Shown here one piece after another: positions 22,227 to 46,679 of a stretch of DNA of 64,000 nt. The notes beneath the pieces are model-generated. The model worked only from the letters and a program-made list of their open reading frames with translations. It did no database searches and had not been told where the DNA came from. The stretch is taken from positions 1 through 64,000 of the forward strand of contig NZ_JARHTQ010000007.1 of assembly GCF_029223525.1 (NCBI RefSeq), given 5' to 3'. This DNA comes from Streptantibioticus ferralitis (GTDB lineage Bacteria; Actinomycetota; Actinomycetes; Streptomycetales; Streptomycetaceae). A program made the translations under genes and the position numbers. The first letter of the stretch is position 1. Every line of letters begins with the position of its first letter.

Positions 22227-22346
22227 GGGCTGCGGACCCGGACATTAGGCCGAATGCATTCTTTATGCCTTGTATTACGAAATAACCTACCTGGCTGGTC
22301 AATGAATACTTCCGTCGGCTAACCCAGCAGCGAGGAAGAGCACCTC

Positions 22347-24981: not shown

Positions 24982-25060
24982 CCGGGGCACGCGGGTTGCC
25001 GTACCGCCTCCGGAGTAGCCCAGGGTGCGGCGGGTCCGGGGGTGCCCGAGCCTTGGGGGT

Positions 25061-25264: not shown

Positions 25265-25270
25265 GCGGCC

Positions 25271-26697: not shown

Positions 26698-26946
26698 CCC
26701 GCTCCATCAGCCGCTCCGCGCGCGCCGAGGTGGCGCCGCGGGTCCTTCATGGAGTACAGACCACGGCCGGCCGCTGGCGGTTGCACGCCCGGTGTGCCGG
26801 TTCCCCGGGTTCGGCGGCGGATGCCCCCTTCGGATCGGCGGCGCCTGCTCGGCGGTACGCGGCGGCTGGCCGCTGGACCGCCAACGAGGCGCCGCCGCCG
26901 TCGACTTGCTCGGGTCGTGCGGGCTTCTCGTGCCGGTTCGTACCGC

Positions 26947-29825: not shown

Positions 29826-31061
29826 TCAGCCGGGTATGCCCGCCAGGGTCCGGTGGGCGGAAGACGGTACGCGATCGGCCGCGGTCAGCCGCAGCGGGAG
29901 CCTGCGCAGGCCGTTGACCACGATGGAGTCCAGGTACTCGGGTTCGCCGTCGACGGCCACCTGCCCCACCTGCGCGAAGAACTCCCCGAGCACCGCCCGG
30001 ATTTCCAGCTTCGCCAGCTGTGTCCCCACGCAGTAGTGTGGGCCCGCGCCCAGCGCCAGATGACGGTTCGGGGTGCGGCGGACGTCGAGGACATCGGGGT
30101 CGGCGAACTGCGCCGGGTCGCGGTTGGCCGAGGTCAGCCAGCACACCACCAGGTCCCCCCGCCGGATCCGCTGTCCGCCGAGCACCACATCCCGCTGCGC
30201 ACGCCGCAGGATGTGCGTGGCGCTCGATGTCCAACGCAGGATCTCCTCGACCGCGCTGTCCACCACGTCGTCGAAGCCGTCGCGCAGCAGCGCCCACTGC
30301 TCCGGCCGTTCCAGCAGTGCGAGCATGCCGCCGGACATCGCGAGACGTACGTTCTCCGTCCCCCCGACCAGCAGGTTGTCGCAGTTGAGCACCACCTCGT
30401 CGAGGGGCAGGTGCTCGCCCTCGAACCGCACGCCCGCCAGGACGCTCACCAGGTCCTCGCCGGGCTCGACGCGCCGCCGTTCCACCAGGTCGCCGAAGTA
30501 GTCCAGGATCTGCAGATGGGCGATGCTGCGCTCCTCGGCCGTGCCGGCGCAGAACGCGTCCGTCGACCACTCCACGATGGACGGACGGTCCTCGTCGGGG
30601 ATGCCGAGGAAGGTGCAGACCACCTCCAGCGGCAGCTTCGCGGCGACATCGGTGACGAAGTCGATCCGCGAGGCCCGCACGGCTTCCCGCACGATGGAGT
30701 GCGCCGCGGAGTTCAGGGACTGCGCCAGCAGCCGCAGGTTACGCGGCGCGAACCAGCCCGCGATCGCCCCTCGCAGCACGTTGTGCCGCGGCGGGTCGGA
30801 CAGCGCGAGGGTACGGTTGCTGCCGGGGTCCTCGCCCTGTGCCAGCGGCCGCAGCAGGATGCCCGATGACGAACTGAAGGTCGTCGCGTCCCGCAGCACT
30901 TCCCTCACCTCGTCGAACCGGGTCAGCGACCAGAACCCGGGAAAGATCCCGGGTTCGTGCCAGACCACCGGCTCGTTCTCCCGCATCCACCGCCACAGCG
31001 CGAACGGGTTGCCGTACCGATATGTCGCGCCGTCGACGAGGTGGCTGATGTCGTGCCTCAT
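29826..31061 (-). CDS. Cytochrome P450, likely amino-acid beta-hydroxylase acting on the carrier protein
   Basis: The product has 411 residues from ATG 31061, which overlaps the stop of the thioesterase gene (ATGA) and has GGGAAG 5 nt upstream; an ATG at 31073 is also possible. P450 signatures: EEILR (272-276) and haem loop LALGAGPHYCVGTQLA with Cys344. The I-helix reads LLVGGTENVRLAMSGG, with Asn where the oxygen-activating Thr normally stands. Grouped with an A-PCP didomain and a thioesterase, it fits the NovH/NovI and NikP1/NikQ type of system, in which a P450 beta-hydroxylates an amino acid held on a PCP. The substrate is inferred from this context only. Confidence 0.85.
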   Translation of the reverse strand: MRHDISHLVDGATYRYGNPFALWRWMRENEPVVWHEPGIFPGFWSLTRFDEVREVLRDATTFSSSSGILLRPLAQGEDPGSNRTLALSDPPRHNVLRGAIAGWFAPRNLRLLAQSLNSAAHSIVREAVRASRIDFVTDVAAKLPLEVVCTFLGIPDEDRPSIVEWSTDAFCAGTAEERSIAHLQILDYFGDLVERRRVEPGEDLVSVLAGVRFEGEHLPLDEVVLNCDNLLVGGTENVRLAMSGGMLALLERPEQWALLRDGFDDVVDSAVEEILRWTSSATHILRRAQRDVVLGGQRIRRGDLVVCWLTSANRDPAQFADPDVLDVRRTPNRHLALGAGPHYCVGTQLAKLEIRAVLGEFFAQVGQVAVDGEPEYLDSIVVNGLRRLPLRLTAADRVPSSAHRTLAGIPG

Positions 31062-31819
31062 ATCGCTTCCCATCCAGAACTGGTACCGACCGTGGCGAGG
31101 CACCGAGCGAGCTCGGCGAGGATCAGCGGGGCCGGAGGATCGGTGCGTAGGTAGAAGTGCCCGCCCGGGGTCACCATCGGGACGAACTCGGCTTCGGTGT
31201 GGCCCCGCCACGGTGTGAACCGGGAGCGGATCTCCGGGACGTCGTCCGCGCCGACCACGGCCACCAGCCGGGCGTCGATCCGCTTTCCGGTGTGTTCCCG
31301 GTACTCGGCGACCAGGCGGAGGTCGCCCTTGATGTAGTCGAGGATCAGGTCGAGCAGTTCCGGGTCCTCGCGGATCTCCGCGCTCACCGGTTCATAGCGT
31401 TCGAGGTAGGCCAGCACCTCCGCGGAGCTCTCGAACGGGACCGGCGGACGCAGGGCGGGCGCCGCGGCGGAGGACACCACCAGCGTCGGCACGGCCGCTC
31501 CGGCCCGCTGCAGACAGTGGGCGACCTCGAAGGCGACGTATGCGCCCATGCTGTGACCGAACAGCACGGACAAGCGCGTCGGCTCGGCGAGGATCTCCTC
31601 GGCCACCGACTCGGCGAGCTCCAGCAGACTGGCCGCCGTCGGCTCCGCGATCCGGTCCTCCCGCCCGGGGTACTGCACCGCGCACACCTGCGCCGACGGC
31701 AGCAGCGACGACCAGGAACGGAAGAAGGACGCGCACCCGCCAGCGTGCGGAAAGCACAACACGGCCTGGTCGGCGCCGGGTTGGGGGGCGAAGCGCCTGA
31801 TGGAGGTCAGTGCGGACAT
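31058..31819 (-). CDS. Type II thioesterase (alpha/beta hydrolase)
   Basis: The product has 253 residues starting at MSALTSIRRFAPQPGADQAV. It has FPHAGGCASFF (oxyanion region), the nucleophile elbow FGHSMGAYVAFE (about residues 82-93), the acid region VAVVGADDVP and the catalytic His in VTPGGHFYL. Type II thioesterases remove acyl or aminoacyl groups from carrier proteins. Beside a stand-alone A-PCP and a P450 the likely job is releasing the hydroxylated amino acid, as proposed for NikP2 in nikkomycin biosynthesis, or clearing misloaded PCP. It lies 43 bp after the A-PCP gene and overlaps the P450 gene by 4 bp, so all three form one operon. Confidence 0.88.
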   Translation of the reverse strand: MSALTSIRRFAPQPGADQAVLCFPHAGGCASFFRSWSSLLPSAQVCAVQYPGREDRIAEPTAASLLELAESVAEEILAEPTRLSVLFGHSMGAYVAFEVAHCLQRAGAAVPTLVVSSAAAPALRPPVPFESSAEVLAYLERYEPVSAEIREDPELLDLILDYIKGDLRLVAEYREHTGKRIDARLVAVVGADDVPEIRSRFTPWRGHTEAEFVPMVTPGGHFYLRTDPPAPLILAELARCLATVGTSSGWEAI

Positions 31820-31862
31820 GGCAAGTACCCATCGGTGCGGCGGCGTTGTGGGCCGGAACGAT

Positions 31863-33689
31863 TCAGAGACTGGACAGCAGCTCCACCTGCTGGGGGATCG
31901 TGCCGCAGCGGTACACCTGCTTGACCGCGACCGGCCGACCGGCGATCCTGCCCAGCGCACGGGAGAGTCGGAGCACGGTCAGGGAGTTCCCGCCGAGCTC
32001 GAAGAAGGTGCTTGCTTCGGCTCCGTTCACCGACACGCCCAGGACCTCCTCCCATGCCCGGGTGATCTGTGTCGCGAGAGCGTCGTCCGCGACCGCCTGG
32101 GCCGCGTCGGCCGGCTCGGCCGCCGGGGTCGGCGCGGCCGGGCGGACCGAGGCCAGCAGCGCGGACCGGTCGATCTTGTCGTGTGCGGTCCTCGGCAGTG
32201 TGTCGACGAACACGACCCGGTCCGGGACAACGGCGGCGCCGAGTGCCGCGGCCGCCTGCCGGCGCACCGAGGCCGCGTCGAGACGCGCGCCGGCGACCTT
32301 GACGACGAAGGCGTAGCACGTCGAGGTGTCACCGTCGTGCGCCACCGCGGCGGCCTGCACATCCGGATGCGCCACCAAAGACTCCTCGATCGCCTCGATG
32401 TTGACCCGTACGCCGCGGATCTTCACCTCGTTGTCCAGCCGTCCCGCGAACTCCAGTCCGTTCACCGCCGACCAGCGGCCGAGGTCGCCGGTCAGATAGA
32501 CCTTCACGGTCCGCCCGGGTGCCAACTCGATGTCGACGAACCTGACTTGGGTCTCCCGCTCGGCGCCGACATACCCCTGGGTCACCCCGCTGCCGGAGAT
32601 GGCGATCTGCCCCACCTCGCCCATCGGCACTTCGCGCAGCCGGTCGTCGAGCAGGTGGATCGAGGTGCCGGGGATCGGGAACCCGATGCTGGAGCCGTCG
32701 GCCTTCTCGTAGAGCCGGTAGGTGGCCCAGACGGTGCACTCGGTCGGGCCGTACTCGTTGCCGAGGGTGACATCCGGCAGCAGCGAGAAGTGCTGCTCGA
32801 TGACCCCCTGGGCGAGCGACTCGCCGGCGCAGATCACCAACCGCAGTGACGCGAGGTCGGCGACGAGCCGCTCGTTCTGCCGAGCGGTGTGCAGCAGCTC
32901 CGCGTAGAAGCTGGGTACGGTCAGGGTGTGTGTGACCCGGTGCCGTGCGATGAGCCCGACGAGCGCCGCCGGATCACGCCGCTCGTCCTCGCGCGCGATC
33001 ACCAGCGTGCCGCCCGCGGCGAGGGTGCCCCAGACACCGGCCACCGACGAGTCGAAGTAGAACGGCGACAGCAGCAGGAAGGTGGGGGTGCCGAACCCCT
33101 CGTACACCGCGAGCCGTGCGGCGTTGGAGTTCGCCAGGTTGCGCTGGGAGACCGACACGCCCTTCGGCTTGCCGCTGCTCCCGGACGTGTAGAGGACATA
33201 GGCCTCGTCCTCCGGGCTCGGCCGGGTAGCCGCGGGCCCGACGTCCGCGCCGCCCCCGGAAAGCTCCCGCAGTTCGCCGCTGCGGGGATCGGCGACCACC
33301 GACACCCCGGCCGAGGAGCGGATATGCCGGACGGCGCTTTCCGGGGATTCCGGATTGAGGAAGACGAATGACCGGCCGGACAGCGCGACGCCAAGCGGAT
33401 AGGCCGGCGCACCGGCCGTACGGTACGCCTGGATCCCGATTCTGCGTGAACTGGCGTACGTCTGGTCGGCGTTCAGTCGGCGGGAGACGTCCAGTGCCAT
33501 GGCGGCGAGTTCCCGGTACGAAACGGTGTCGTCCCCGCATATCACGGCGGTACGGTCCGGGTGCAGCCGGGGGCGTGTCAGGACCGTGTCGCAGACGCGT
33601 TGATCGGGTTCGGGCAGGTGCGGTCCGGTCCCAATTTCGTGGGCGTGAGGTTCTGGGCGGTAAGTATGAGATGTAGGCAGGCTTCCCAT
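31863..33689 (-). CDS. Stand-alone NRPS adenylation-PCP didomain
   Basis: The product has 608 residues with no condensation domain. A domain (about 35-510): YVLYTSGSSGKPKGVS (A3, 164-179), FDSSVAGVWGTL (A4, Asp213 for the substrate amine), NEYGPTECTVWAT (A5), YLTGDLGRW (A7) and catalytic Lys505 in A10. The PCP (about 530-608) carries the phosphopantetheine site FFELGGNSLTVL, Ser569. A hand alignment to GrsA gives the specificity residues D-S-A-T-I-A-E-V-W. This is nearest in pattern to histidine codes I remember (D-S-E-L-T-A-E-V-C), but the call is weak. It should load one amino acid on its own PCP for the P450. No MbtH gene is seen nearby. AGGA upstream of ATG 33689 supports the start. Confidence 0.92.
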   Translation of the reverse strand: MGSLPTSHTYRPEPHAHEIGTGPHLPEPDQRVCDTVLTRPRLHPDRTAVICGDDTVSYRELAAMALDVSRRLNADQTYASSRRIGIQAYRTAGAPAYPLGVALSGRSFVFLNPESPESAVRHIRSSAGVSVVADPRSGELRELSGGGADVGPAATRPSPEDEAYVLYTSGSSGKPKGVSVSQRNLANSNAARLAVYEGFGTPTFLLLSPFYFDSSVAGVWGTLAAGGTLVIAREDERRDPAALVGLIARHRVTHTLTVPSFYAELLHTARQNERLVADLASLRLVICAGESLAQGVIEQHFSLLPDVTLGNEYGPTECTVWATYRLYEKADGSSIGFPIPGTSIHLLDDRLREVPMGEVGQIAISGSGVTQGYVGAERETQVRFVDIELAPGRTVKVYLTGDLGRWSAVNGLEFAGRLDNEVKIRGVRVNIEAIEESLVAHPDVQAAAVAHDGDTSTCYAFVVKVAGARLDAASVRRQAAAALGAAVVPDRVVFVDTLPRTAHDKIDRSALLASVRPAAPTPAAEPADAAQAVADDALATQITRAWEEVLGVSVNGAEASTFFELGGNSLTVLRLSRALGRIAGRPVAVKQVYRCGTIPQQVELLSSL

Positions 33690-33784
33690 GGCGGTCCATC
33701 CTTTGCGGCACCGTCAACTCTGTCCACGCGGCACCCGGAACCTTGTCAGGTTCAACATTCCAACCACCGACTTGACATGACTTC

Positions 33785-33814
33785 TTGACGGCGGCGGCGA
33801 GCCGCTCCTAGGTT
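33785..33814 (+). promoter_or_regulatory. Putative promoter for the ATP-grasp operon
   Basis: TTGACG (33785-33790) and TAGGTT (33809-33814) are separated by 18 bp in the 233-bp divergent region, about 100 bp before the PLP-enzyme gene. This resembles a housekeeping sigma promoter. Confidence 0.5.
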
Positions 33815-33922
33815 CTCGGCCGTACCTCGGGCGCCACGCGTCTGCCGGGCCTGACGGCACTCCGAGTTCCTCGAATTACCGCGGGCACAGCTGAACGCGA
33901 CTCATCCGGAAAGGATTTCGAA

Positions 33923-34960
33923 GTGTACAGAACGTTCGCGGAGAAACTGGCCGAACCGGACCTGATCGAGTTGGACGACAGGATCTACGTTCTTCGTTTC
34001 GAAGTAATGAAGGTTACTTCGGTCTATGCGGCGGTAAAGGACCTGCTGGCCCGCGGAGTGATCCACCGCGGGCAGACGCTGGTCGACAGCTCCAGCGGCA
34101 TCTACGGTCATGCGCTGGCCCTGGTCTGCCGTGAACTCGGCCTGAAGTGCCATATCTTCGCCTCCGTCGCGGTGGACGCGGCGATCAGGACCCAGTTGAA
34201 GTACCTCGGCGCGACCTACGACCAGGTTCCGTCGTCGGAGAGCCTCAAGCACGACCAGGAGACCCGCGTCCGGCTCGTCCACGCGTACCTGAACGAGCAC
34301 CCGGACGCCTACTGGATGCGGCAGTACCACGACGACGTGCACTACATCGGCTACGAGAGCGTGGCCAAATCGCTGGTCAGCGAGCTGGGTTCGCACGAGA
34401 TCACGCTGGTCGGCGGGGTCGGCACCGGCGCGTCGACCGGCGCGATGAGCCGCTATCTGCGGGCCTCGTGCACCGAGGTGCGGGTGGCCGGCATCCAGCC
34501 GTTCGGTAGCCGTTCGTTCGGCTCGGAATCCGTTCCCCTCGACGGGTTCATCATCGCGGGCATCGGCAGCGGAATCCGGTTCGACAACATCGACTACCGC
34601 GCCTACGACGACATCCACTGGCTGGACTTCGACGTCGCCGCCGCCGGTTGCCGTCATCTGCTCTCCACCACCGGTGTTTTCGCCGGGCTTTCCGCGGGAG
34701 CGGGCTGGCAGGTGGCGCGCCACCTGCGTTCCACCGAGCCCACGGGCGGACCGATCGTGTTCATGGCGGCCGATCCCGGACACCGCTACGTGGACAAGGT
34801 GTTCCCCGCGGACGGGCCGCTCCTCGAAGACCCGGAGTACCGCCCGATCGTCATTTCCGACCTGGCCGACATCACCGGTCCGTGGTGCACGGCGAACTGG
34901 TCCAGGAGGCCGTTCAGCGTGCAGGACAACCTGCCGGAACTGGTGCTCCAGGCCTCATAG
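33923..34960 (+). CDS. PLP-dependent enzyme of the cysteine-synthase fold
   Basis: The product has 345 residues starting at GTG (VYRTFAEKLA). By alignment with cysteine synthase, Lys30 in FEVMKVTSVYAAVKDLLARG is the Schiff-base lysine. VDSSSGIYGHALAL takes the place of the TSGNTG substrate loop. VGGVGTGASTGAMSRYLR is the phosphate-binding loop. TGVFAGLSAGAGWQVARHL is the SSGA-like segment near the C-terminus. Family members do beta-replacement or beta-elimination on serine-derived substrates; in other antibiotic clusters they make 2,3-diaminopropionate or O-ureidoserine. Replacement of the Asn in the TSGN loop points to an unusual substrate. It heads the plus-strand operon with the ligases, so it likely supplies a non-protein amino acid. 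Confidence 0.85.
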   Translation: MYRTFAEKLAEPDLIELDDRIYVLRFEVMKVTSVYAAVKDLLARGVIHRGQTLVDSSSGIYGHALALVCRELGLKCHIFASVAVDAAIRTQLKYLGATYDQVPSSESLKHDQETRVRLVHAYLNEHPDAYWMRQYHDDVHYIGYESVAKSLVSELGSHEITLVGGVGTGASTGAMSRYLRASCTEVRVAGIQPFGSRSFGSESVPLDGFIIAGIGSGIRFDNIDYRAYDDIHWLDFDVAAAGCRHLLSTTGVFAGLSAGAGWQVARHLRSTEPTGGPIVFMAADPGHRYVDKVFPADGPLLEDPEYRPIVISDLADITGPWCTANWSRRPFSVQDNLPELVLQAS

Positions 34961-34979
34961 CGTGAAGGAAAGAATTCAA

Positions 34980-36176
34980 ATGGCCAACGTCGCGGTCATC
35001 AACTACGGTCCGCTGAACGACTATGCCGCCATGCTCCCGGAACTCGTCGACGGACTGCATGTCCTCAGCCACAACGACCTGGCGAACACGGCGGACTTCG
35101 CGCTTTACGAGTACGTGCCGGACTGCGAATTCGTACCGTATCCGGAACTGAAGATCCGGCAGCTGGCGCGGGAGCGGCGGTTCACCCACCTGATCACGGA
35201 CAACGAATACGACCTCGAACGTGCCGCCAGAATCCGGGAGGACCTCGGCATCCCCGGCCAGTCCTCGGCCAGCGCGCTGTCGTTCCGCGACAAGGTGGTC
35301 ATGAAGGAGGTCGCCCAACGCGCCGTCGCCACACCGCGTTTCGCCCGGCTCCAGGCGATCAACGACCTGACCGACTTCATCGCCGAGAACGCCTACCCCG
35401 TCGTCGTCAAGCCGGTGAAGCAGGGCGGTTCGCGCGACATCGTGGTGCTGCGCGACGAAAACGAACTGGTCGAGTTCAGCCGTCGCCACTGGCGTGACGA
35501 CCTCATGGTCGAGGGCTATGTCGAGGGCGACATCTACCACGTCGACGCGGTGCTGGCCGACGACTACCGGTTCGTGGCGTCCTCGCGGTACCTGCGCAAC
35601 TGCCTTGGCGTTCTGTCCGGGCAGAACAACGGTTCGCTGCAACTGCACCCTCAGGACAAACTCGCCAAACGGCTTGAGGAGTTCCTCGACACCACGCTCG
35701 GGGCCTTCGACACCCCGTCGACCGGCGCCTACCACCTTGAGGTGTTCCACACCCCCGAGGACGAACTGGTGCTGTGCGAGATCGCCTCACGCGTCGGCGG
35801 ATCCCGCATTCCCGCGCTGACCCGCGCCACCTACGGCCTGGACCTGCTCACCACCTGGCTGCGGCTGTCGTGCGGGCTGCCCGTCGACCCGCCGCCGAGC
35901 GCACCGCCGGCCGAGTTGCACGGCTCGGTCGCCATCGTGCCGCAGGGCCGCCCGGTACGGGCACCGGACAGCCCGCCTTTCGAATGGGTACGGCACTACC
36001 AGGTGAACAAGCAACTCGCGCCGGGCGCCACGCCCCAGAACAGCACATCCAACCTGTGCTTCGCGATCGTACGGGGCGCCGACACCCAGGAGGTCGAGCG
36101 GCGGCTGCTGGAAGTCGAGGACTGGCTCCTGGCGCACCTGCGCGAACGGCCGAGCCACGAAGGGCCGAACCCGTGA
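34980..36176 (+). CDS. ATP-grasp ligase 1
   Basis: The product has 398 residues; ATG 34980 follows GAAGGAAAG. It starts MANVAVINYGPLNDYAAMLP. The N-terminal preATP-grasp domain (1-105) is followed by the ATP-grasp fold: SFRDKVVMKEVAQRAVATPR (ATP-binding Lys), NAYPVVVKPVKQGGSRDIVV (glycine loop), MVEGYVEGDIYHVDAV (hinge and first metal ligand) and LVLCEIASRVGGSRIP (metal-binding Glu...Arg...Gly). Such carboxylate-amine ligases activate an acid as acyl phosphate and couple it to an amine. Its stop overlaps the GTG of the exporter gene (GTGA). The substrate is unknown; it resembles the BtrJ/biotin-carboxylase-like subgroup more than D-Ala-D-Ala ligase. Confidence 0.88.
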   Translation: MANVAVINYGPLNDYAAMLPELVDGLHVLSHNDLANTADFALYEYVPDCEFVPYPELKIRQLARERRFTHLITDNEYDLERAARIREDLGIPGQSSASALSFRDKVVMKEVAQRAVATPRFARLQAINDLTDFIAENAYPVVVKPVKQGGSRDIVVLRDENELVEFSRRHWRDDLMVEGYVEGDIYHVDAVLADDYRFVASSRYLRNCLGVLSGQNNGSLQLHPQDKLAKRLEEFLDTTLGAFDTPSTGAYHLEVFHTPEDELVLCEIASRVGGSRIPALTRATYGLDLLTTWLRLSCGLPVDPPPSAPPAELHGSVAIVPQGRPVRAPDSPPFEWVRHYQVNKQLAPGATPQNSTSNLCFAIVRGADTQEVERRLLEVEDWLLAHLRERPSHEGPNP

Positions 36177-37456
36177 AGACGTGGCGGCAGACGTCACCGA
36201 CCGGACGCACCCTGCTGATCGCGGTGCTCTTCACCGGCCTGACGACGTTCATGTTCCTGCCGCTGCTGGCCATCCAGCTCACCGCGCAGGGCATCCCGGC
36301 CAGCCGGACGGGATTCCTCGTGGGCCTGCTCGCCTTCTCCAGCCAGGGCTTCTCGCTCCTGTGCGGGCTGCTGGTGGACCGGATGGGCGCGCGGCGGGTG
36401 ATGATGGCGGGGTTCGCGTTGCGGATCGTCGGCTATCTGCTGCTCAGCCTCGGCGGCGGCACGCGGTTGACGCCGATCCTGGCCGGCATCGTGACCATCG
36501 GCGTCGGCGGGTCGATGCTCGGGCTGTCGATCAAGACGCTGCTGGTGTCGGAGGACAGCGTCGAGCCGCGCACCATGCTGGCGCTGCGCGCCACGTTCGT
36601 GAACATCGGCGTGGTGCTCGGCCCGGCGTTGGGCGCGGCGGTCTATCCGCTCGGTTTCCCGTTCATCCTCGGCGCCTGCGTGCTCTCGCACCTGGTCCTC
36701 GGCCTGCGCCTGGTGTTCCGGCCGGTCGCGGCGGGGCCCCGGCCGCGACCGGTCGCGGGCGCCGCGGCACATGACTGCGCACCGGAAGCGCCACGTTGGG
36801 CGCGCTGGCAGTGGGCGCCGCTGTGCCTGATCGGCGTCGCCTACTGGGCGATCTACAGCCAGCTGAACGTCGTCATGCCGATCACCGCGCGTGCGATGAC
36901 CGGCAGCACCGCCGCGATCTCGGTCGTCTTCACGGTCAACGGCGCGCTCGTCGTGCTGTGCCAGTACACACTGCTGCGCCATGTGTTCCGCCGGACCGCC
37001 ACCCGTACGCTCCTCGTCCTCGGGTTCCTCGCGTTCGGCTGTGCGTACGCGGCGCTCATCCCGCGCGCCGGCTGGTTCTCGCTGCTGGTCTTCGTGCTGC
37101 CGGTCACGGCCGCGGAGATGCTGGTCGGGCCCAGCCTCGACGAGCAGGCGATCAAGGCGAGTTCGAAGCGTGGCACCGGGCGCGCGCTCGGCACGATGAG
37201 CGCGGCCGGTGCCTGCGGGAGCCTGCTCGGCGCCAGCATGGGCGGCTACCTGCTGCAGACGCTGCGCGGTGGCAGCGGGGTCTGGCTGGTGATCACCGGG
37301 CTGTCCGTCATCGCGGCGGCGCTCTGCCTCCTCCTACCGAAAGATCGTGCCCACCATGCCTCCAGCAACGTCCCAGGGGGAGCGCCCCGTGCCGCCAGCC
37401 GAGACCCCAGGCCTGCCGCCCCGCCCGGAGCGGAACCCAGCGGCGCGGCCCGATGA
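36173..37456 (+). CDS. Major facilitator superfamily exporter
   Basis: The product has 427 residues starting at GTG 36173, translationally coupled to the ATP-grasp gene. Twelve hydrophobic helices are visible. The loop 2-3 motif reads GLLVDRMGARRVMMAGFALR, the MFS motif A pattern (G-x-L-x-D-R-x-G-x-R-R). A cytoplasmic loop with GPRPRPVAGAAAHDCAPEAP divides the halves. It most likely exports the cluster product and gives self-protection; import is less likely given the context. The last 40 residues are Pro/Ala-rich and overlap the start of the next gene in another frame. Confidence 0.87.
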   Translation: MKTWRQTSPTGRTLLIAVLFTGLTTFMFLPLLAIQLTAQGIPASRTGFLVGLLAFSSQGFSLLCGLLVDRMGARRVMMAGFALRIVGYLLLSLGGGTRLTPILAGIVTIGVGGSMLGLSIKTLLVSEDSVEPRTMLALRATFVNIGVVLGPALGAAVYPLGFPFILGACVLSHLVLGLRLVFRPVAAGPRPRPVAGAAAHDCAPEAPRWARWQWAPLCLIGVAYWAIYSQLNVVMPITARAMTGSTAAISVVFTVNGALVVLCQYTLLRHVFRRTATRTLLVLGFLAFGCAYAALIPRAGWFSLLVFVLPVTAAEMLVGPSLDEQAIKASSKRGTGRALGTMSAAGACGSLLGASMGGYLLQTLRGGSGVWLVITGLSVIAAALCLLLPKDRAHHASSNVPGGAPRAASRDPRPAAPPGAEPSGAAR

Positions 37457-38627
37457 CACCCAGCACACCGCCGTGTTGCTCAACCCGCGCGACCTCGTCA
37501 TCGGCGCCGCGCGCAAGCTCGGCGTCACCATGGTCGTCGCGGCCCTGCCCGGCACACCCGAACCCGAAGGCGTGCCCGGGCCGGTCTTCCGTACCCCGTG
37601 GGACACCGACCCCGACGAACTCATCGCGCACCTAACGGCGTTGGGCCTGTCGGGCTCGGTCAGCTGCTTCGGCTTCGGTGAACTCGGCAGCGGGGTGTCC
37701 GCCGTGGTCAACCGCCGGATGGGATGGCCCGGCAACCCGCCGGAGGCGCTCGAAGCCTTCAAGGACAAGGCGAAGCTGCGGGCCGCGGTAGGCGACCGGG
37801 CCGGGGTGCCGGTGGCCCACGTGACGTGCCGGGCGAAGGAGGAGATCCGCCCGGCGATCGAACGGATCGGTCTCCCCTGCGTGGTCAAACCGGTGGACGG
37901 CACCGGGAGTTCCGGCGTGCGCTACCTGACCCACCGGGTCGAGGCCGAGCGCTATCTGACCGCGCTCGACTTCGAAACCCCCCATCTGGTGGAGGAGTTC
38001 CTGACCGGTACCGAGTACAGCGTGGAGGCGATGAGCTCGCCCGCCGGTCACCGCATCCTGGCCATCACGGAGAAGATGACCACGGGCGCACCGCACTTCG
38101 TCGAGACCGGCCACACACTGCCCGTCCGCCTGCGCCCGGCCGAGGAGGCCGCCATCGCCGAGGTCGTCGCCGCCACGCTGGACGCGGCGGGTTACCGCTA
38201 CGGCCCTTCGCACACCGAGATCATGCTGACCGAGGCCGGGCCCCGGCTCATCGAGTCGCACGGCCGCCCCGGCGGCGATCGGATCAGCGACATGCTGGAA
38301 CTCGCTCTCGGCGAGGATGTCTTCGAGCAGGCGATGTCCGCTGTCTTCGGCCTCCCGGTGCCCACCGAGCCCACCCGTACCCGCGTCGCCGGGATCCGGT
38401 ACGTCACCTTCGACCGGACGGTGCCCATGCCCGGCATCGACACCGGGCCGGTCGGCTCGCTGCCCGGGGTCACCGAGGTCGGCATCGCCGTACCGGCGGG
38501 GCAGCTCCCGCCGGAGGTCCGCAAGTCCGGCAACCGGCACGGCTTCGTCGTCGCCACCGGCGACACCCGCGACGAGCTGGAGAGCAACCTCGCCCGCGCG
38601 GTACGCACGCTGACCGCAGGCGCCTGA
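37356..38627 (+). CDS. ATP-grasp ligase 2
   Basis: From ATG 37356 the product has 423 residues, with a Pro-rich N-terminal extension overlapping the exporter gene by about 100 bp. GTG 37473, just after the exporter stop, may be the true start of the folded part (VLLNPRDLVIGAARKLGVTM). ATP-grasp features: AFKDKAKLRAAVGDRAGVPV, GLPCVVKPVDGTGSSGVRYL (glycine loop), LVEEFLTGTEYSVEAMSS and TEIMLTEAGPRLIESHGRPG (metal ligands), with GDRISDMLELALGEDVFEQA as in carboxylate-amine ligases of the dipeptide-forming (BacD/DdaF-like) class. It is different in sequence from ligase 1, so probably forms a different bond. Substrates are unknown. Confidence 0.87.
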   Translation: MPPATSQGERPVPPAETPGLPPRPERNPAARPDDTQHTAVLLNPRDLVIGAARKLGVTMVVAALPGTPEPEGVPGPVFRTPWDTDPDELIAHLTALGLSGSVSCFGFGELGSGVSAVVNRRMGWPGNPPEALEAFKDKAKLRAAVGDRAGVPVAHVTCRAKEEIRPAIERIGLPCVVKPVDGTGSSGVRYLTHRVEAERYLTALDFETPHLVEEFLTGTEYSVEAMSSPAGHRILAITEKMTTGAPHFVETGHTLPVRLRPAEEAAIAEVVAATLDAAGYRYGPSHTEIMLTEAGPRLIESHGRPGGDRISDMLELALGEDVFEQAMSAVFGLPVPTEPTRTRVAGIRYVTFDRTVPMPGIDTGPVGSLPGVTEVGIAVPAGQLPPEVRKSGNRHGFVVATGDTRDELESNLARAVRTLTAGA

Positions 38628-38678
38628 GCCGGCAACTTCCTGCCCTGACAGACCCGTTCAACCCGAGAGGCGCTTCCC

Positions 38679-39686
38679 GTGTCGTACAAGATCCTGGTCC
38701 TGGTCTCCGAGGCGGCCACCTTCCGGCTCGACAACCACTCGATCATCCCCAGCGCGCTGCACCGCGAAGGCCACGAGGTCTACATCGGCGACATCGACAC
38801 GCTCTGCGTGCACGACTCCGTCGTGGTCTGCGACCGGGTGAAGCTGACCGAGGAGTACCTCGTCGGCAGCGACTTCCCGGCACTGAGCGAGACCTACGCA
38901 AGCGCCGAGGAGTTCGACCTGGTGTGGGTGCTCGCGGGCACCCACCCCGATGCGCTCACCGACCACTTCCAGCTGCTGTGGCTGCTCAACCGGCGGGTGC
39001 CGTTCGTCAACGAAGCGTCGGCGCTGTTCTACATGAACTCCAAGACCACCCTCGGCGCCGCGGTGCCGAACGAGAACCTCCCCGCGTCGTACGTGTCGAA
39101 CGACTTCGACTTCCTGACCAGCCTCGTCGAATCCGACAGCGAGCGGACCTGGGTGGTCAAGCCGACGAACGACGGTATCGGCGCCGACGTCTACTTCCTC
39201 AGCAAGAACGAGCGCAACCGCTCCGCGCTGCTGCAGTCTGCCACCGGCAACGCCGCACCGCGCTACGGCAGGTACGGCCGCGACATCATCGGCATGGCCA
39301 AGCGCTACACCGCCGTGCAGGAGTACATACCGAACGTGCGCAGCAACGAGAAACGGGTGATCATCGCCGGGGACGTGCCGGTGAGCGGCTTCCGGCGCTT
39401 CCACCCCGACCACGACGACCGGGCCAACGTCACACTCGGCGCCAGGTTCGAGGCCCTCACGCTGACCCCGGAGGAGGACGACTTCGTGCGCCGGCTCGGC
39501 AAGCGGATGATGGAGCTGGGCATCTTCTACTCCGGCATCGACCTGGCGTACCCGTACGTCATGGAGTTCAACCTGGTGAACCCGGGCGGGCTGAGCTACG
39601 CCTACCGCGCCACCGGAGTCGACCGGTCCTCCGAGGCCGTCAACACCGTGCTGGCCGCGCTGCGCGCCTCGGGGAAGCTGTCATGA
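38679..39686 (+). CDS. ATP-grasp ligase 3 (glutathione-synthetase-like)
   Basis: The product has 335 residues, start GTG (VSYKILVLVSEAATFRLDNH). The fold follows prokaryotic glutathione synthetase/RimK-like enzymes: FVNEASALFYMNSKTTLGAA for the RP-N-K-like start of the central domain, TWVVKPTNDGIGADVYFLSK as the ATP-binding loop, AVQEYIPNVRSNEKRVIIAG with VQ-x-Y and E-K-R-V, and AYPYVMEFNLVNPGGLSYAY, the metal-binding E-x-N-x-x-x-P-G-G-L motif. GshB-type enzymes join a C-terminal carboxylate to an amine. Its stop overlaps the ATG of the next ligase (ATGA), so the two are translated together and may act in sequence. Confidence 0.87.
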   Translation: MSYKILVLVSEAATFRLDNHSIIPSALHREGHEVYIGDIDTLCVHDSVVVCDRVKLTEEYLVGSDFPALSETYASAEEFDLVWVLAGTHPDALTDHFQLLWLLNRRVPFVNEASALFYMNSKTTLGAAVPNENLPASYVSNDFDFLTSLVESDSERTWVVKPTNDGIGADVYFLSKNERNRSALLQSATGNAAPRYGRYGRDIIGMAKRYTAVQEYIPNVRSNEKRVIIAGDVPVSGFRRFHPDHDDRANVTLGARFEALTLTPEEDDFVRRLGKRMMELGIFYSGIDLAYPYVMEFNLVNPGGLSYAYRATGVDRSSEAVNTVLAALRASGKLS

Positions 39687-41017
39687 GCCCGTGGAACTGG
39701 CTGGAGCCGCGGGCCGTTGAGGCGTGGACGGACTTCGCGGCCACCACGGACGCCGAGCCCGACCGGGCGCGCTTCCTGGCGAGCATCCACCGTCCCAACT
39801 GGCGCCATATGTACCCGCCGCAGTTCTTCACCACCGCCGCGGCCGACCGGACCGCGACGACCGGGGTACGCCTCGCCGAGCTGGTCGCCGGCTTCCCGCG
39901 ACGGGTCTTCGGCGACGACCTCGCGGCGTGGGCCGAGTACCTCGGTGTGCCGGGCGAGGACGCCGACCTGATGTGCGCTGCACTGCGCAGCCCCCGGCTG
40001 CGCCGCGCCGCCACCTCGTTCATGCGCCCCGACCTGCTGGTGACCGACGACGGCCTGAAGCTGGTCGAGATGAACGTGGCCACCTCGCTCGGCGGGCTGA
40101 GCACCCTCGCCCCGTACACCGCCGCAGCCCGGGACTCGGCCTACAACCGCTTCCTGCGGCAGCGCGGACTGGGTCTGCACGGGCCGGACACCTCGAAGGT
40201 GTGGCTGGAGATGTTCGCCGGGCTGGTGCGGCGACGCGGCGACCAACCACCGCACGTCTTCGAGGCGATCGCCAATCCGGCGGACATCGACTCGGGCCGC
40301 CGCTTCTTCGTCGACATGGTCCGCTCCGCGGGCTACGAGATCAGTTGCGGACTGGTGTCCGACCTGGAACTGACCGACGAGGGCGGGCACTTCGAGGGCA
40401 GACGGGTGGACGTCGTGGTGACGATGTACACCTGGCACGAGGCGAGGCACTTCGTACCGCCCGCGCGAACCCGGGCACTGATGGATCTCGACATCGCGGG
40501 CAAGCTGGACTTCATCGGCTCCCCGGCCGCCGCGCTCTTCGACAACAAGGCGAACCTGGAACTGCTCACCGCCCCGGAGTTCGCCACCCATCTGCGCGCG
40601 GACGAGCGGGAGTTGGTACGGGCACACGTACCGACGACCTTCCGGCTGCGGCCGGAGACCGCCGACCGCGCGGTCACCGATCGCGAACGGCTGATCTGCA
40701 AACCGGCGTCGGCGTACGGCGGCAAGAACGTGGCGTTCGGCTGCACCATGGACGACGCGCAATGGCGGGCGCTGGTTCGGGAACGACTGGCCGATCAGCG
40801 GGAACGCCATGTGTTGCAGGAGCGGCTGCGTCCGGCGGTGGTCGAGCTGCCCGGCACGACTCCGCCAGAGCGCGAGGTGGTGCTGGCGCCGCTGGTGTTC
40901 GGCGGCCGGTTCGCCGGGGTGTTCCTGCGCCAGTCTCCGCCGCAGGCCCAGTCGACGATCAACGCGTCGAACGGCGCGGAGTCCGCGGCGGTCCTGACGT
41001 TCCGGGACCAGGCTTAA
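39683..41017 (+). CDS. ATP-grasp ligase 4 (circularly permuted / glutathionylspermidine-synthase-like)
   Basis: The product has 444 residues from ATG 39683. The order of motifs differs from normal ATP-grasp enzymes: a metal-binding-type segment LKLVEMNVATSLGGLSTLAP (about 128-147) comes first. VVVTMYTWHEARHF, FIGSPAAALFDNKANLELLT (about 280-300), the Lys-containing RLICKPASAYGGKNVAFGCT (about 336-355) and VLQERL follow, and the protein ends with APLVFGGRFAGVFLRQSPPQ and NGAESAAVL. This matches circularly permuted ATP-grasp proteins related to glutathionylspermidine synthase. Such enzymes also make amide bonds. A longer open frame upstream is a GC-bias artefact; the ATGA overlap fixes the start. 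Confidence 0.82.
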   Translation: MSPWNWLEPRAVEAWTDFAATTDAEPDRARFLASIHRPNWRHMYPPQFFTTAAADRTATTGVRLAELVAGFPRRVFGDDLAAWAEYLGVPGEDADLMCAALRSPRLRRAATSFMRPDLLVTDDGLKLVEMNVATSLGGLSTLAPYTAAARDSAYNRFLRQRGLGLHGPDTSKVWLEMFAGLVRRRGDQPPHVFEAIANPADIDSGRRFFVDMVRSAGYEISCGLVSDLELTDEGGHFEGRRVDVVVTMYTWHEARHFVPPARTRALMDLDIAGKLDFIGSPAAALFDNKANLELLTAPEFATHLRADERELVRAHVPTTFRLRPETADRAVTDRERLICKPASAYGGKNVAFGCTMDDAQWRALVRERLADQRERHVLQERLRPAVVELPGTTPPEREVVLAPLVFGGRFAGVFLRQSPPQAQSTINASNGAESAAVLTFRDQA

Positions 41018-41060
41018 AACGCGTTGCCGCCGGTCGCCCTTGAATGCTGAAGTGAGCCGG

Positions 41061-41843
41061 ATGAACAGCGAAGAGGCGGTGCTGGCGGCGTTCGACCAGC
41101 AGATGAGGCAGGGCGCCCGGGTCGACGGCCCAGGCGCCCGGGTCGAGCGGGTCGGGGACGTGGTGCGTCAGGTCGGCACCGACCAGGACTGGAACGGGGT
41201 TCTTTGGTCAGCCCTGACCGAGGACACCGCGGATGCCGCGATCGCCGCACAGGTAGGCCATTTCACCTCGCTCGGGCTTCGTGAGTTGGAGTGGAAGCTC
41301 TACTCCCATGACCGCCCGGCCGACCTCCCGGGGCGGCTCCGCGCGGCCGGGTTCACCCCAGGCCCCGAGGAGACGCTGATGGTCGCCGAGGTGAGCGACC
41401 TGCCCACCGAGGTGGCCCTACCCGAGGGCATCCACCTGCGCCCCGTCACCGACCCCTCCGGGGTGGACCTCGTGGTGGACGTCCACGAGCGGGTGTTCGG
41501 CACCGACGGCTCCCGCCTCAGGCACCGGCTGCTGGCCCAACTCGCCGAGGACTCGGACACGGTCACCGCCACCGTCGCCATGTCCGGCGACCAGCCGGTC
41601 TGCGCGGCCCGGATGGAACTCCACCCGGGCACCGATTTCGCCAGCCTGTGGGGCGGCGGCACCCTCGTGCCTTGGCGAGGCAAGGGCATCTACCGTGCCC
41701 TGATCGCCCACCGAGCCGCCCTCGCCGCCGAACGCGGCTACCGGTACTTGCAGGTCGACGCCTCCGACCAGAGCCAGCCGATCCTGGGGCGGTTGGGGTT
41801 TGTCGGGTTGAGCACCACCACTCCGTGCGTATACCGGCGCTAG
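41061..41843 (+). CDS. GNAT-family acetyltransferase
   Basis: The product has 260 residues, start ATG 41061; TTG 41040 is in frame upstream. The C-terminal GNAT fold (about 130-260) shows ASLWGGGTLVPWRGKGIYRA, the acetyl-CoA pyrophosphate loop with the R-G-K-G-I-Y variant of Q/R-x-x-G-x-G/A, then ALIAHRAALAAERGYRYLQV and NxxS-like ASDQSQPILGRLGFVGLSTT. The N-terminal half is a second, degenerate GNAT-like domain. It is 43 bp after ligase 4 on the same strand, so it may belong to the cluster, for example acylating the product for self-resistance or activating a serine hydroxyl for the PLP enzyme. Both roles are guesses. Confidence 0.82.
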   Translation: MNSEEAVLAAFDQQMRQGARVDGPGARVERVGDVVRQVGTDQDWNGVLWSALTEDTADAAIAAQVGHFTSLGLRELEWKLYSHDRPADLPGRLRAAGFTPGPEETLMVAEVSDLPTEVALPEGIHLRPVTDPSGVDLVVDVHERVFGTDGSRLRHRLLAQLAEDSDTVTATVAMSGDQPVCAARMELHPGTDFASLWGGGTLVPWRGKGIYRALIAHRAALAAERGYRYLQVDASDQSQPILGRLGFVGLSTTTPCVYRR

Positions 41844-42511
41844 GTTCTGCCAGCGGCCGTCGTGTCACGGCCGCCTCACCGAGACTTGTCTGACTACCGC
41901 TCCGCATAAGGGACCAGCCCGCCTCTACGAGTTCAATCGGGGCAACAGGCGCTCCCGTATGAGAAGCGGTATGCACTGTTCCCTGTCGGCGTCTTCGGGC
42001 GTTTAATGGCATGTGGTGTGCAGTACAGCGTCGCCGAGAGATCAGAAGATGCGTTCGCGCTTGTGCGGTCCGACAGGGGCGGATAGTTCACATGCCTTAT
42101 GGGGGGGCGGTTTGATCATGGCCGGAGAGGTTCATGTCGCACCACCAGCGAAAGACGTCTCTACCTCCGGAGACCTTTCGGTCCCTTTACTCGAAAGTAT
42201 GTTTTCCACGAGTTCGGGAACCGTACTGGGTCAATAGTCCTTGATTTCTCTCTTCGTCCAGGAATGACCGGCGGTCTCGCAAGGGCCAGACCACGTCCTT
42301 CAGCCTCAACCTGCCTGGTCGGGGAGCATCCTGGCTCGACTCGACCGAAGTGCGCAGTGCTCATGGGGTTCCAGTGGTTTTCGCCGAAAAGGCAGCGGAA
42401 CAGCCTCTCGGTCTGCGAGGCTCTCGGCGCCGGGGTCACTCCCCGTGTGCCGCTCGCCTGGGGCAATTCGACGGTTCCGGCCGCCGTCTCAGCGAGGACG
42501 CGTCGGGTGCC
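41844..42511. other. Non-coding stretch after the ATP-grasp cluster
   Basis: This region has lower GC than its surroundings, for example 42170-42260. No convincing gene was found. It may mark the edge of the acquired cluster. Confidence 0.5.
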
Positions 42512-42595: not shown

Positions 42596-42717
42596 GATGA
42601 GCAGGTCGCGGCGTGGTGTACCTACTGACCCGTCATGGGTGATGGGCGGCCGCGCCACCAGTAAGCCATCCGCGGGGACAGGCCGCTATGAGATGAGAAC
42701 CCCAGAAAGGACGCTTG

Positions 42718-43725
42718 ATGTCGGCTGCATTCCCCTCAGCCAACGAATACCCCATCCGAGAGGTCGTCCTGTCCTACCCCGCGAGCTGGTCACGGCCGCC
42801 TAGTACCACCCTCCAAGGCGACCCGGAGGTTCCGTGGCTCAAACGCCTCGGTTACCTCGAAACGGCGGAAGACCACACATTCGTCAGGGATCTGCAATCC
42901 AAGATCTTCGCGGTCCACTGCTACCCCGACGCCCGGCCCGGCGCTCTCGACGTGATCACGCGGTTCCTGGCGCTTTGGACCAGGCACGATGACCGGCTTG
43001 AGAACGAAGGAGGCATCGACAAGGAGCGGGCGGACCTCATCCGATGCGCCCTCACCGGCACACTGCCCGAGCCGCCCCTCACGCCCGACCGGGAGATCCG
43101 TGCCTGGTGGGAGATCGGCCGGGACTTCGCGGAACTGGCCAGCCCCAACTGGTGTCGGCGTTTCGGGGAACGCTACGGCGACTGGCAGGACGCTGTCCGA
43201 TCCGAAGCGCAGATGGTTGCCAGCTGGGGCCGGTACCCGGAAGTCGGGATCTACTCCGGGATTCGCGTCCGCGCCGCCGGCATGGGCCCGTGGGTGGAGT
43301 TGATCGAGTTCGCCCTCGGACGGGAGCTTCCTTCTGCCGCACTGGACGTCGATCACGAGCGCATTCACGAACTCGTCGGCAGTGTGCACCTCGTTGACAA
43401 CGACCTGCACGGCGTCACCATGGACGCGAAGGCCGACTGGCCCAACCTCGTCTCCTCCATAGCCCACCACAACGGCATCACCTGGGCCGAGGCGAGTGAG
43501 GATGCCGCCCGACTGCACGCCCAACACCTGTGCCAGTTGCGCACGGTCGACTACCACCTGCGCAACCGCAGCCCGGAGATCGCCTGGTGGCTGGACGCAG
43601 TCCACCACCTTCTGGCCGGCCTGGTCACTGGCCACCAGCTCTCACCGCGCTACTCGCCTGTGCACCACCTGGAGGACGGCACGACCCTGCGCATCACGGT
43701 TAGTTGGCGGGACATGACGTCCTGA
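42718..43725 (+). CDS. Class I terpene synthase-family protein with variant motifs
   Basis: The product has 335 residues; ATG 42718 has AGAAAGGA about 6 nt upstream. The aspartate-rich motif reads HDDRLENEGG (D91 D92 ... E95), the pyrophosphate-sensor region YSGIRVRAAGMG is present, and the metal-binding triad is NDLHGVTMD (N228, G232, D236) in place of ND-x-x-S-x-x-x-E. The C-terminal S-x-RY signature appears as LSPRYSP. The family cyclises prenyl diphosphates with three Mg2+. The Asp in place of Glu and Gly in place of Ser leave activity uncertain. It is convergent with a CYP157 gene of a conservon; the product is unknown. Confidence 0.82.
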   Translation: MSAAFPSANEYPIREVVLSYPASWSRPPSTTLQGDPEVPWLKRLGYLETAEDHTFVRDLQSKIFAVHCYPDARPGALDVITRFLALWTRHDDRLENEGGIDKERADLIRCALTGTLPEPPLTPDREIRAWWEIGRDFAELASPNWCRRFGERYGDWQDAVRSEAQMVASWGRYPEVGIYSGIRVRAAGMGPWVELIEFALGRELPSAALDVDHERIHELVGSVHLVDNDLHGVTMDAKADWPNLVSSIAHHNGITWAEASEDAARLHAQHLCQLRTVDYHLRNRSPEIAWWLDAVHHLLAGLVTGHQLSPRYSPVHHLEDGTTLRITVSWRDMTS

Positions 43726-43777
43726 CTTCAAGGCGGCTGCGGGATCGTCCGCACGTTGCCTGTCGGCGCGGGTATGC

Positions 43778-43814
43778 GATGCGGGATGCACGTCGAGCAC
43801 GTGCATCCCGCATC
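43778..43814. terminator. Perfect 16-bp inverted repeat between convergent genes
   Basis: GATGCGGGATGCACGT (43778-43793) is fully complementary to 43799-43814, with a 5-nt loop (CGAGC). It lies between the stops of the terpene synthase and the CYP157 gene. It most likely serves as a bidirectional terminator. Confidence 0.75.
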
Positions 43815-43831
43815 GTCATGACCCCACTGGT

Positions 43832-45286
43832 TCACCGTGCTCGCAACCACCGGGTCAGGGAACGCCACCAGGCCCTGACCCGATCGGAGGCGGGCACGGG
43901 AGCGGCCGGGGCTTCCTGCGGTGGCGGCGCCGGCGCCGGGAACTTCGGGCTCTCGGGCGGCATTGGCATTACGGGAGACCCCGTGACCTGCGCGGCTTCG
44001 GGCTCTCGTGGCGTGAACCGCACCGGCACGGCCATCAGGCGCCGCGACAACAGCGAGGATTCCCAGTCAAGTTGGTCCTCTAGTACCGCCAACTCGATGT
44101 CGGGTAGCCGAACCAGGAGGGCGTCGATGCCGGTGTCGGCGATGGCTCGGCCGATGTCCTGGCCGGGGCACTCGTGTGGGCCACTGCTGAATGAGAGATG
44201 GGACCGGTTCCCGTGGACCGGGACAGAGAGGTCGGGACGGATCGCCGGGTCGATATTCCCCGCGGCCAGGCCGAGGACAAGCAGGTCACCGGATTTGATC
44301 TTCTGATCGGCGAACTCGGTGTCCCCGGTGGCCCAGCGGCCGTAGACGCGCCCGAATGGCGGTGCGTCCCAGAGCACTTGTTCCACCGCATCGGGAAGGG
44401 TCATGTGCCCACCCGCCAGCGAGGCGCGGAAGCGGGGGTCGGTCAGTACCATCCGCAAGGTGTTCGCGATGAGATTGGCGGTTGTTTCGTACGCGGTGAT
44501 GAGGACGAGACGTAGGTGTTCCGCTGCCTCGTCGTCAGCCAGATCGGCGCGGTGTTCCAGCAGCCACGATGCGAAGTCCTTGCCGGGCAGAGCACGTTTG
44601 GCCGCGACGAGCTGACGCAGCGTTTTCATCACGTACTCGTTGCTCGCGATGGCCGTCTCGGTCCCCTTGAGCATGTCCCGGGCAGCGTCGACAAGGCGTG
44701 GGCCGTACTCGTCGGGCATGCCGAGGAGCTGCGTCAGGGTCAGCATGGGTAGGTGCTCGGCGAACTGTTCCACCAACTCGGCCTTGCCATCAGCGGCAAA
44801 GCTGTCGACGAGCTGATTGGCGAATCGAACGACGTAGCGTCGGATTCCTCGCCGATCGAAGCGGTTCATGCTCTCGGTCACCGCCGCACGCAGCCGCTCG
44901 TGCTCCTCGCCGTCGGCGAAAACGCAGAGTGGCTGCCAAGCGACCACCGGCAGCAGTGGCGAGTCCGCCGGCACTCTCCCGTTCTGCAGTTCCCGCCACC
45001 GTCGTGAATCCCGGGAGAACCGTGATGGCGTGCGCATGACCTCCAGGTTCTCGGCGTACCCCAGGATCAGCCACGCCGGTAGGTCGCCGTGTACCAACAC
45101 CGGTGCGACCGCACCATGTTCGGTGCGGAGTTCGTTGTACAGGCCCACCGGATCGGCCTCGGCCTCCGGGCCGTAGAGCCGCCGTACGCCGCCGGGGCCG
45201 ATGGGACCGATGGAGTGGGCGGGGCACCCCGGCGGCGGGGTGAGGGGGGAGTCGGTGCGGGGGTGGTCGGGGGGAGTTGTGGTCAC
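43832..45286 (-). CDS. cvnE: Conservon cytochrome P450 (CYP157 type, CvnE)
   Basis: The product has 484 residues. The I-helix is normal (LITAYETTANL, about 263-273) and the haem loop is SFSSGPHECPGQDIGRA with Cys373, but the K-helix that should contain E-x-x-R reads EQVLW (302-306). Loss of the Arg is the known hallmark of the CYP157 family, exemplified by EQSLW in S. coelicolor CYP157C1. CYP157 genes are the last members of Cvn operons. The last 55 residues are an unusual extension: a Pro/Ala/Glu-rich linker and then RVRAWWRSLTRWLRAR, a basic aromatic amphipathic helix that could touch the membrane. It overlaps cvnD by 4 bp. Confidence 0.9.
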   Translation of the reverse strand: MTTTPPDHPRTDSPLTPPPGCPAHSIGPIGPGGVRRLYGPEAEADPVGLYNELRTEHGAVAPVLVHGDLPAWLILGYAENLEVMRTPSRFSRDSRRWRELQNGRVPADSPLLPVVAWQPLCVFADGEEHERLRAAVTESMNRFDRRGIRRYVVRFANQLVDSFAADGKAELVEQFAEHLPMLTLTQLLGMPDEYGPRLVDAARDMLKGTETAIASNEYVMKTLRQLVAAKRALPGKDFASWLLEHRADLADDEAAEHLRLVLITAYETTANLIANTLRMVLTDPRFRASLAGGHMTLPDAVEQVLWDAPPFGRVYGRWATGDTEFADQKIKSGDLLVLGLAAGNIDPAIRPDLSVPVHGNRSHLSFSSGPHECPGQDIGRAIADTGIDALLVRLPDIELAVLEDQLDWESSLLSRRLMAVPVRFTPREPEAAQVTGSPVMPMPPESPKFPAPAPPPQEAPAAPVPASDRVRAWWRSLTRWLRAR

Positions 45287-46677: not shown

Positions 46678-46679
46678 GG

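Follow-up and report, generated by a model that had tools for sequence, protein, structure and literature searches.

How might an actinomycete assemble a small peptide from modified amino acids when its genes supply four different ATP-grasp ligases and only one carrier protein? The question is raised by a locus of Streptantibioticus ferralitis (assembly GCF_029223525.1), located in a stretch of 64,000 nucleotides that comprises positions 1 to 64,000 of contig NZ_JARHTQ010000007.1 and is referred to here as the window. Gene re-calling gave nine intact genes at 29826-41017, arranged in two divergent, partly overlapping operons. One operon holds a set for hydroxylation of a carrier-bound amino acid (the trio), and the other holds a pyridoxal phosphate (PLP) enzyme, a major facilitator superfamily (MFS) transporter and the four ligases (AG1 to AG4). 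We consider it probable that the product of the cluster is a small (beta-hydroxy)histidine peptide, exported from the cell and joined by ATP-grasp ligases without the assembly modules of a nonribosomal peptide synthetase (NRPS). NRPS-independent ATP-grasp peptide clusters are a known kind, and this cluster would belong among them. Among the matches listed from the full text of a PubMed Central (PMC) subset, no paper on this gene set or its products was recognised, which is no proof of absence.

The divergent operons

Sequence or structure prediction is the source of what is described here about folds, motifs and operon layout, about recurrence and absence from a congener, and about the histidine-type code and the co-occurrence of hisG and proB/proC in relatives. 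On the minus strand, the trio consists of a cytochrome P450 (29826-31061; Pfam p450, 69 bits; heme motif GAGPHYCVG), a stand-alone thioesterase (31058-31819; Pfam Thioesterase, 133.8 bits; GHSMG motif) and a didomain of adenylation (A) and peptidyl carrier protein (PCP) domains (31863-33689; AMP-binding, AMP-binding_C and PP-binding; PCP motif LGGNSL), with the heme, GHSMG and PCP serine motifs all intact. On the plus strand, the PLP enzyme (33923-34960; PALP, 111 bits) is followed by AG1 (34980-36176), the MFS transporter (36173-37456; MFS_1, 87 bits), AG2 (37356-38627), AG3 (38679-39686) and AG4 (39683-41017). Four junctions overlap, by 4 bases each at P450/thioesterase, AG1/MFS and AG3/AG4 and by 101 bases at MFS/AG2, as expected of co-translated operons.

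All proteins named in a preliminary description of this DNA were recovered in intact frames on the strands it gave. Pfam backed every assignment but those of AG4, which was sub-threshold, and of a neighbouring gene resembling GCN5-related N-acetyltransferases (GNAT), which was identified by eye and had neither a Pfam nor an NCBIfam match. Among the matches listed for these ten proteins, none exceeded its NCBIfam cut-off, which fits an undescribed gene set. The lack of a multi-module NRPS was also borne out, as the sole NRPS-like protein contains only A and PCP domains by Pfam, with no condensation domains or several modules.

Histidine as the hydroxylated amino acid

Motif-anchored positions were used to read the A-domain codes, in which the final lysine is an assumption. 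The code of the window, DSATIAEVWK, is identical at 9/10 positions to DSALIAEVWK, which we take to be the code of NikP1. An excerpt of PMC12283262 lists DSALIAEVWK among the histidine codes and as one that can accept beta-hydroxylation (PMC12283262). DSATIAEVWK is also found in loci L056 and L063, and DSATVAEVWK in L064, L065, L071 and L100, so that all 7/7 trio clusters carry one of these two codes. Less related A domains have DSASIAEVWK (L128), DSACIAEVWK (L106) and DSACVAEVWK (L107). The code narrows the unspecified amino acid of the preliminary description, whose carrier-bound beta-hydroxylation trio was confirmed, most likely to histidine. In a PDB search with the P450, rank 1 was 4l0e, ranks 2 and 3 were CYP125MRCA, and rank 4 was 3mgx; 4l0e and 3mgx are presumably P450sky and OxyD, both of which we take to hydroxylate PCP-bound amino acids. 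The cluster P450 is probably a carrier-bound beta-hydroxylase, and the stand-alone thioesterase presumably frees the hydroxylated amino acid.

The closest known arrangement is that of nikkomycin, in which NikP1, NikP2 and NikQ form the beta-hydroxyhistidine trio and NikS is a ligase. Similarly, the window has an A-PCP protein with a histidine-type code, a stand-alone thioesterase and a P450, a likeness at the level of Nik protein roles, not of Nik sequences, and AG1 is ~33% identical to proteins annotated NikS. Unlike the nikkomycin cluster, the nine genes include no nucleoside genes but encode four ligases and a PLP enzyme.

Four distinct ATP-grasp ligases

The presence of four distinct ATP-grasp ligases, as initially proposed, was upheld by Pfam for AG1 to AG3, which exceeded the cut-offs of ATP-grasp families, and by predicted structure for AG4. 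The best PDB match of AG1 was 4wd3, an L-amino acid ligase, and AG2 matched BL00235 and BacD. Only AG2 combines, by Pfam, an ATP-grasp domain (ATP-grasp_4, 66.5 bits) with an L-amino acid ligase C-terminal domain (LAL_C2, 43.6 bits). AG3 is bacterial glutathione synthetase-like (GSH-S_ATP, 70.7 bits), its nearest solved relatives being glutathione synthetase (1gsa) and RimK-type ligases. AG4 scored 23 bits against CP_ATPgrasp_2 (cut-off 32) and had no PDB relative by phmmer. Its model, built from a 12-sequence alignment with a predicted local distance difference test (pLDDT) score of 80.1, matched human, yeast and plant glutathione synthetases, glutathionylspermidine synthetases and Cp1B in Foldseek (8fbz, 2hgs, 9cjn).

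Residues R115xD117 and E129xN131 of AG4 are invariant in 12/12 sequences. This RxD/ExN pattern resembles, by motif comparison and not by alignment, residues R139, D141, E163 and N165 given for the fungal E-64 ligase Cp1B in part of PMC12568646; AG4 is predicted to be of the CP_ATPgrasp_2/Cp1B kind. Unlike Cp1B, AG4 lacks a sequence-level PDB match, and the host and gene set differ. Also, unlike plain L-amino acid ligases, AG1 and AG2 are combined here with GshB-like and Cp1B-like ligases and with the carrier-bound hydroxylation trio. The MFS protein is presumed, from its family, to be an exporter.

A divergent PLP subfamily

The PLP enzyme is of the cysteine-synthase fold and shares the fold of SbnA in its predicted structure (pLDDT 74, with less confident segments at 196-219, 285-302 and the C-terminus). 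The top fold matches were SbnA and O-ureidoserine synthase, the latter ranked third and presumably DcsD of the cycloserine pathway. K30, invariant in 15/15 aligned sequences, is presumed to be the PLP-binding lysine. In the subfamily (RFExMK ... DSSSGIY), the N-terminus is shortened and the usual SGNxG loop is replaced by DSSSGIY or DSSSGTY. A beta-substituted alanine is a plausible product, judging from the modelled fold. The standard SbnA/SbnB diaminopropionate route was rejected: the enzyme scored only 132.5 bits against the NCBIfam SbnA model (cut-off 349.95), and the best SbnB match in the window's genome reached 111.5 bits (cut-off 326.9). SbnB was over its cut-off in 4/9 genomes or records searched, one of the four (W01) being a plasmid only.

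Among five loci with a scanned neighbour, PLP relatives at 43-50% identity adjoin a gene with a GHMP kinase domain in four (L081, L103, L104 and L105; not L101), so the substrate may be a phosphorylated hydroxy-amino acid. On plasmids of S. melanogenes (L103:7247-13008) and Tsukamurella (L105:6305-12987), the PLP relative stands with a GHMP kinase, DUF364 and an ATP-binding cassette (ABC) transporter annotated for iron. These two are possibly undescribed metallophore loci, and the PLP subfamily, as yet uncharacterised, merits attention by itself.

Recurrence of the core

A search with AG4 covered 394 genomes of the family (E <= 1e-10). Matches were found in 90/394 genomes, only four of them at >=66% identity (the window's own genome G000, and G002, G367 and G263), indicating that the AG4-bearing form is rare in the family. 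A scan of genome contigs with the AG3 alignment gave 27 loci, for which absences hold within the fetched stretches, mostly 10 kb either side of AG3. A core locus was defined by PLP enzyme, AG1, AG2 and AG3 at identities of at least 74%, 66%, 64% and 73%, respectively. The core was present in 11/27 loci and, with the window and an S. globosus plasmid, 13 core loci were obtained. The 12 others, from Streptomyces and Amycolatopsis, include the MFS gene at >=60% identity; an MFS match occurs in 13/13, partial in L057 and L065. The joint occurrence of the PLP enzyme, AG1, AG2 and AG3 in 12 other loci is not chance; conserved synteny was confirmed, and the chance adjacency that the preliminary description had considered was not borne out.

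Four layouts were distinguished. The trio, core and AG4 occur together in the window, L056, L063, L064 and L071, and the trio and core without AG4 in L065 and L100. The core with AG4, proB and proC and no trio is found in L058, L060, L061 and L062, and the core alone in L057 and L059 (Amycolatopsis). In a tree of PLP enzyme, AG2 and AG3 (14 tips, including L081), the seven trio loci split from the rest with support of 0.978.

The remaining 16/27 loci are more distant. Two hold AG1 and AG3 only (L066, L067), four hold AG3 at 50-55% identity with AG4 (L068, L069, L070, L072), and Curtobacterium L081 has the PLP enzyme, MFS, AG2 and AG3 at 34-50%. The other nine are AG3-like loci at 31-38%, from seven Bradyrhizobium and from Streptomyces L073 and L077, with no match to the PLP enzyme or other ligases in the fetched stretches. 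The Bradyrhizobium orphans (L074-L076, L078-L080, L082; 31-36%) lie in some cases near apparent transposase genes, as seen by eye, and L074 has a 24% A-domain match. The plasmid loci L101 (S. xanthii) and L102 (Streptomyces sp. NBC_01591) carry AG1 and AG3, the PLP enzyme and, in addition, two proteins resembling L-amino acid ligases; they were left out of the core count for weaker matches to all four proteins (30-67%, AG2 partial) and a different layout.

Further combinations were observed. L043, L044 (on the contig of L072), L069 and L070 have AG3 at ~50% and AG4 at ~42% identity, an SbnA-like enzyme (289 bits in L044; cut-off 349.95) and an AG2-like ligase; L043, L044 and L069 also have A domains downstream, and L043 and L070 a PhyH/ectoine-hydroxylase-like oxygenase. 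On a plasmid of Streptomyces sp. NBC_01006, L106:6544-36709 has four annotated ATP-grasp proteins, the DSACIAEVWK A domain and a P450 49% identical to that of the window. In genome G071, an AG4 relative (L045:6022-6897) is broken by stops and has no sibling genes within the 20 kb retrieved; it appears to be a relic.

Co-clustered hisG and proB/proC

A second hisG lies directly after AG4 in 6/9 AG4-bearing core clusters and gives independent support for histidine. Two hisG genes were found in 6/12 genomes searched and one in the other six, the extra copy always being in-cluster. None of the three genomes without AG4 has a second copy, and the link of AG4 with hisG, and hence histidine, is suggestive only.

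HisG residues are given in Mycobacterium tuberculosis numbering, counted by hand on 5u99; in the alignment, row L088 represents the cluster copy of L071, and row L090 repeats L063. All ten copies of the housekeeping set, to which Amycolatopsis hisG genes do not belong, have Asp218 and Ser236. Cluster HisG is altered in 5/6 copies, with His218 in L063 and Ala236 in the four copies from proB/proC clusters. Asp218 contacts the inhibitor histidine, according to portions of two papers (PMC10464499, PMC5415358). Corynebacterium glutamicum G233, described in excerpts as a deregulation site and reported in combination as G233H/T235Q (PMC10464499, PMC3896937), corresponds to position 236 by the offset of the corresponding residues listed there. 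Feedback release in the cluster copies is likely but unproven, judging from these substitutions.

Similarly, the four trio-less AG4 clusters carry a second proB over its family cut-off, with the conserved motifs kept, and proC by similarity (4/4); the ProB and ProC families were checked for L041 (same genome as L060) and L058. L066 has an aspartokinase-like gene beside AG1 and AG3, and L066 and L067 have a VioC/clavaminate-synthase-like oxygenase, all below NCBIfam cut-offs. In S. xanthii, genes annotated as aspartate kinase, aspartate-semialdehyde dehydrogenase and TauD oxygenases lie near AG1 and AG3, and the annotation also names a diaminobutyrate transaminase. On the basis of these co-occurrences we propose tentatively, at slightly less than even confidence, a family of ligase-only peptide pathways in which a conserved core (divergent PLP enzyme, AG1 to AG3 and MFS) is combined with exchangeable building-block modules that can have their own precursor supply, leading to undescribed histidine-, proline- or aspartate-derived peptides. 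The modules would be the beta-hydroxyhistidine trio, HisG altered at the feedback site, ProB with ProC, and aspartokinase with a beta-hydroxylase-like oxygenase.

Cluster boundaries within the genus

Three genomes were compared, the window's own, G001 and G002. G002 carries AG4 at 81% identity. A genome search of G001 gave no match to AG4 or AG3 and only a 27% PLP-fold paralogue located elsewhere. The G001 matches to window positions 26095-26702 and 41073-42155 are separated by only 193 bases, and the segment 26703-41072, with the nine genes, a fatty acid desaturase and an open reading frame (ORF) of unknown function, has no DNA match at the corresponding place. This segment appears either to have been inserted in the window or to have been lost from G001. 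Of the nine proteins, the P450 alone matches this G001 locus, at 27% and to the neighbouring right-flank P450.

The GNAT-like gene (41061-41843, plus strand) had been counted as a cluster member. In G001 the gene is still present next to the common right flank (75% protein identity), together with the rhomboid-like gene (83%) and the terpene synthase and P450 right of GNAT, and none of the nine genes is found there. Membership was therefore rejected, GNAT being a backbone gene and 41017 the cluster end. It falls within the fetched stretch of only 2/13 core loci. The left anchor in G001 is the single rhomboid-like gene, and the next 4.5 kb of G001 contain no match to the window genes at 21228-26257, leaving the exact left edge uncertain. 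The desaturase and the ORF are absent from the 1.9 kb of G002 fetched beyond the P450. The right flank common to G001 (42715-48224) holds a terpene synthase, a P450 and conservon-like genes (ATP-binding, roadblock and histidine kinase-like).

Proposed product and alternatives

The substrates, bond order, peptide length and export that we infer can be set out as a scheme. The A-PCP protein would load L-histidine, the P450 would hydroxylate the beta-carbon of histidyl-S-PCP, and the thioesterase would release free beta-hydroxyhistidine. The PLP enzyme may convert an activated serine (O-acetyl or O-phospho) into a beta-substituted alanine as the second building block. AG1 to AG4 would then convert carboxylates into acyl phosphates and link the units stepwise into a tri- to pentapeptide, through ligases of the LAL type (AG1, AG2), GshB type (AG3) and Cp1B type (AG4), the last possibly contributing a histidine-type unit. 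Export of the peptide would fall to the MFS protein.

Several observations weigh against this scheme. A-domain specificity is predicted only from motif-anchored code positions, and ranks 2-3 in the P450 search were CYP125MRCA, which is not a carrier-bound hydroxylase. The canonical GSxKDR and SGNxG segments are missing from the PLP enzyme, which may therefore follow a different chemistry, and AG4 is likened to its counterparts by predicted fold alone. AG4 is also absent from 4/13 core clusters, for which reason the earlier estimate of up to five units is weakly supported. The window's genome has one hisG, outside the cluster; the L071 cluster copy keeps Asp218 and Ser236, and Ser236Ala is a mild change.

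The product could instead be an antimetabolite or translation-inhibiting peptide, either a histidine-analogue 'Trojan horse' or GE81112-like, with the relatives' extra HisG serving in part as a resistant copy, and we regard this as possible though doubtful. GE81112 also contains histidine, and the cluster HisG copies are changed at or beside the histidine-binding site. GE81112A is described, in an excerpt of PMC10167690, as a tetrapeptide antibiotic from Streptomyces whose C-terminal unit is beta-hydroxyhistidine, a unit that is predicted here as well. However, the same excerpt describes GE81112 as nonribosomally synthesised (PMC10167690), whereas the window's cluster is without condensation domains or several modules; it also lacks hisG, though resistance would be needed there too.

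A metallophore, with imidazole, beta-hydroxyhistidine and diamino-acid ligands for metal capture, appears unlikely. The iron-annotated ABC permease, DUF364 (putative heavy-metal chelation; Pfam) and GHMP kinase beside the PLP relatives on the S. melanogenes and Tsukamurella plasmids speak for it, as does the mention in part of PMC12971057 of beta-hydroxyhistidine as a known chelating unit of peptide metallophores. However, the MFS protein is the sole transporter among the nine genes, with no importer and no SbnB, and neither a metal box nor a conserved palindrome was seen in the divergent promoter, inspected by eye only. Moreover, the siderophore histidine hydroxylases named in that part of the paper are Fe/2-oxoglutarate enzymes, not P450s (PMC12971057).

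There is a small chance that AG3 closes a ring in the manner of DcsG, which acts so in cycloserine synthesis, leaving fewer peptide bonds; the third-ranked O-ureidoserine synthase in the PLP fold search would agree with this, but glutathione synthetase and RimK-type ligases are the nearest solved relatives of AG3. It is very improbable that chance alone has brought together a trio and a ligase operon belonging to separate pathways, since the trio divergently adjoins the PLP gene in 7/7 trio-bearing core loci, even though 6/13 core loci have the ligase operon without the trio and L066 and L067 have AG1 and AG3 without the PLP enzyme and AG2.

If the (beta-hydroxy)histidine peptide reading is true, small peptides that contain histidine could be reached by a predictable route free of NRPS, and the ligases, being self-contained, could be used to make short peptides. 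Feedback enzymes encoded in the same cluster, such as those of hisG and proB, would then reveal which amino acid a ligase cluster uses, and evolution would appear to swap amino-acid modules around fixed ligases.

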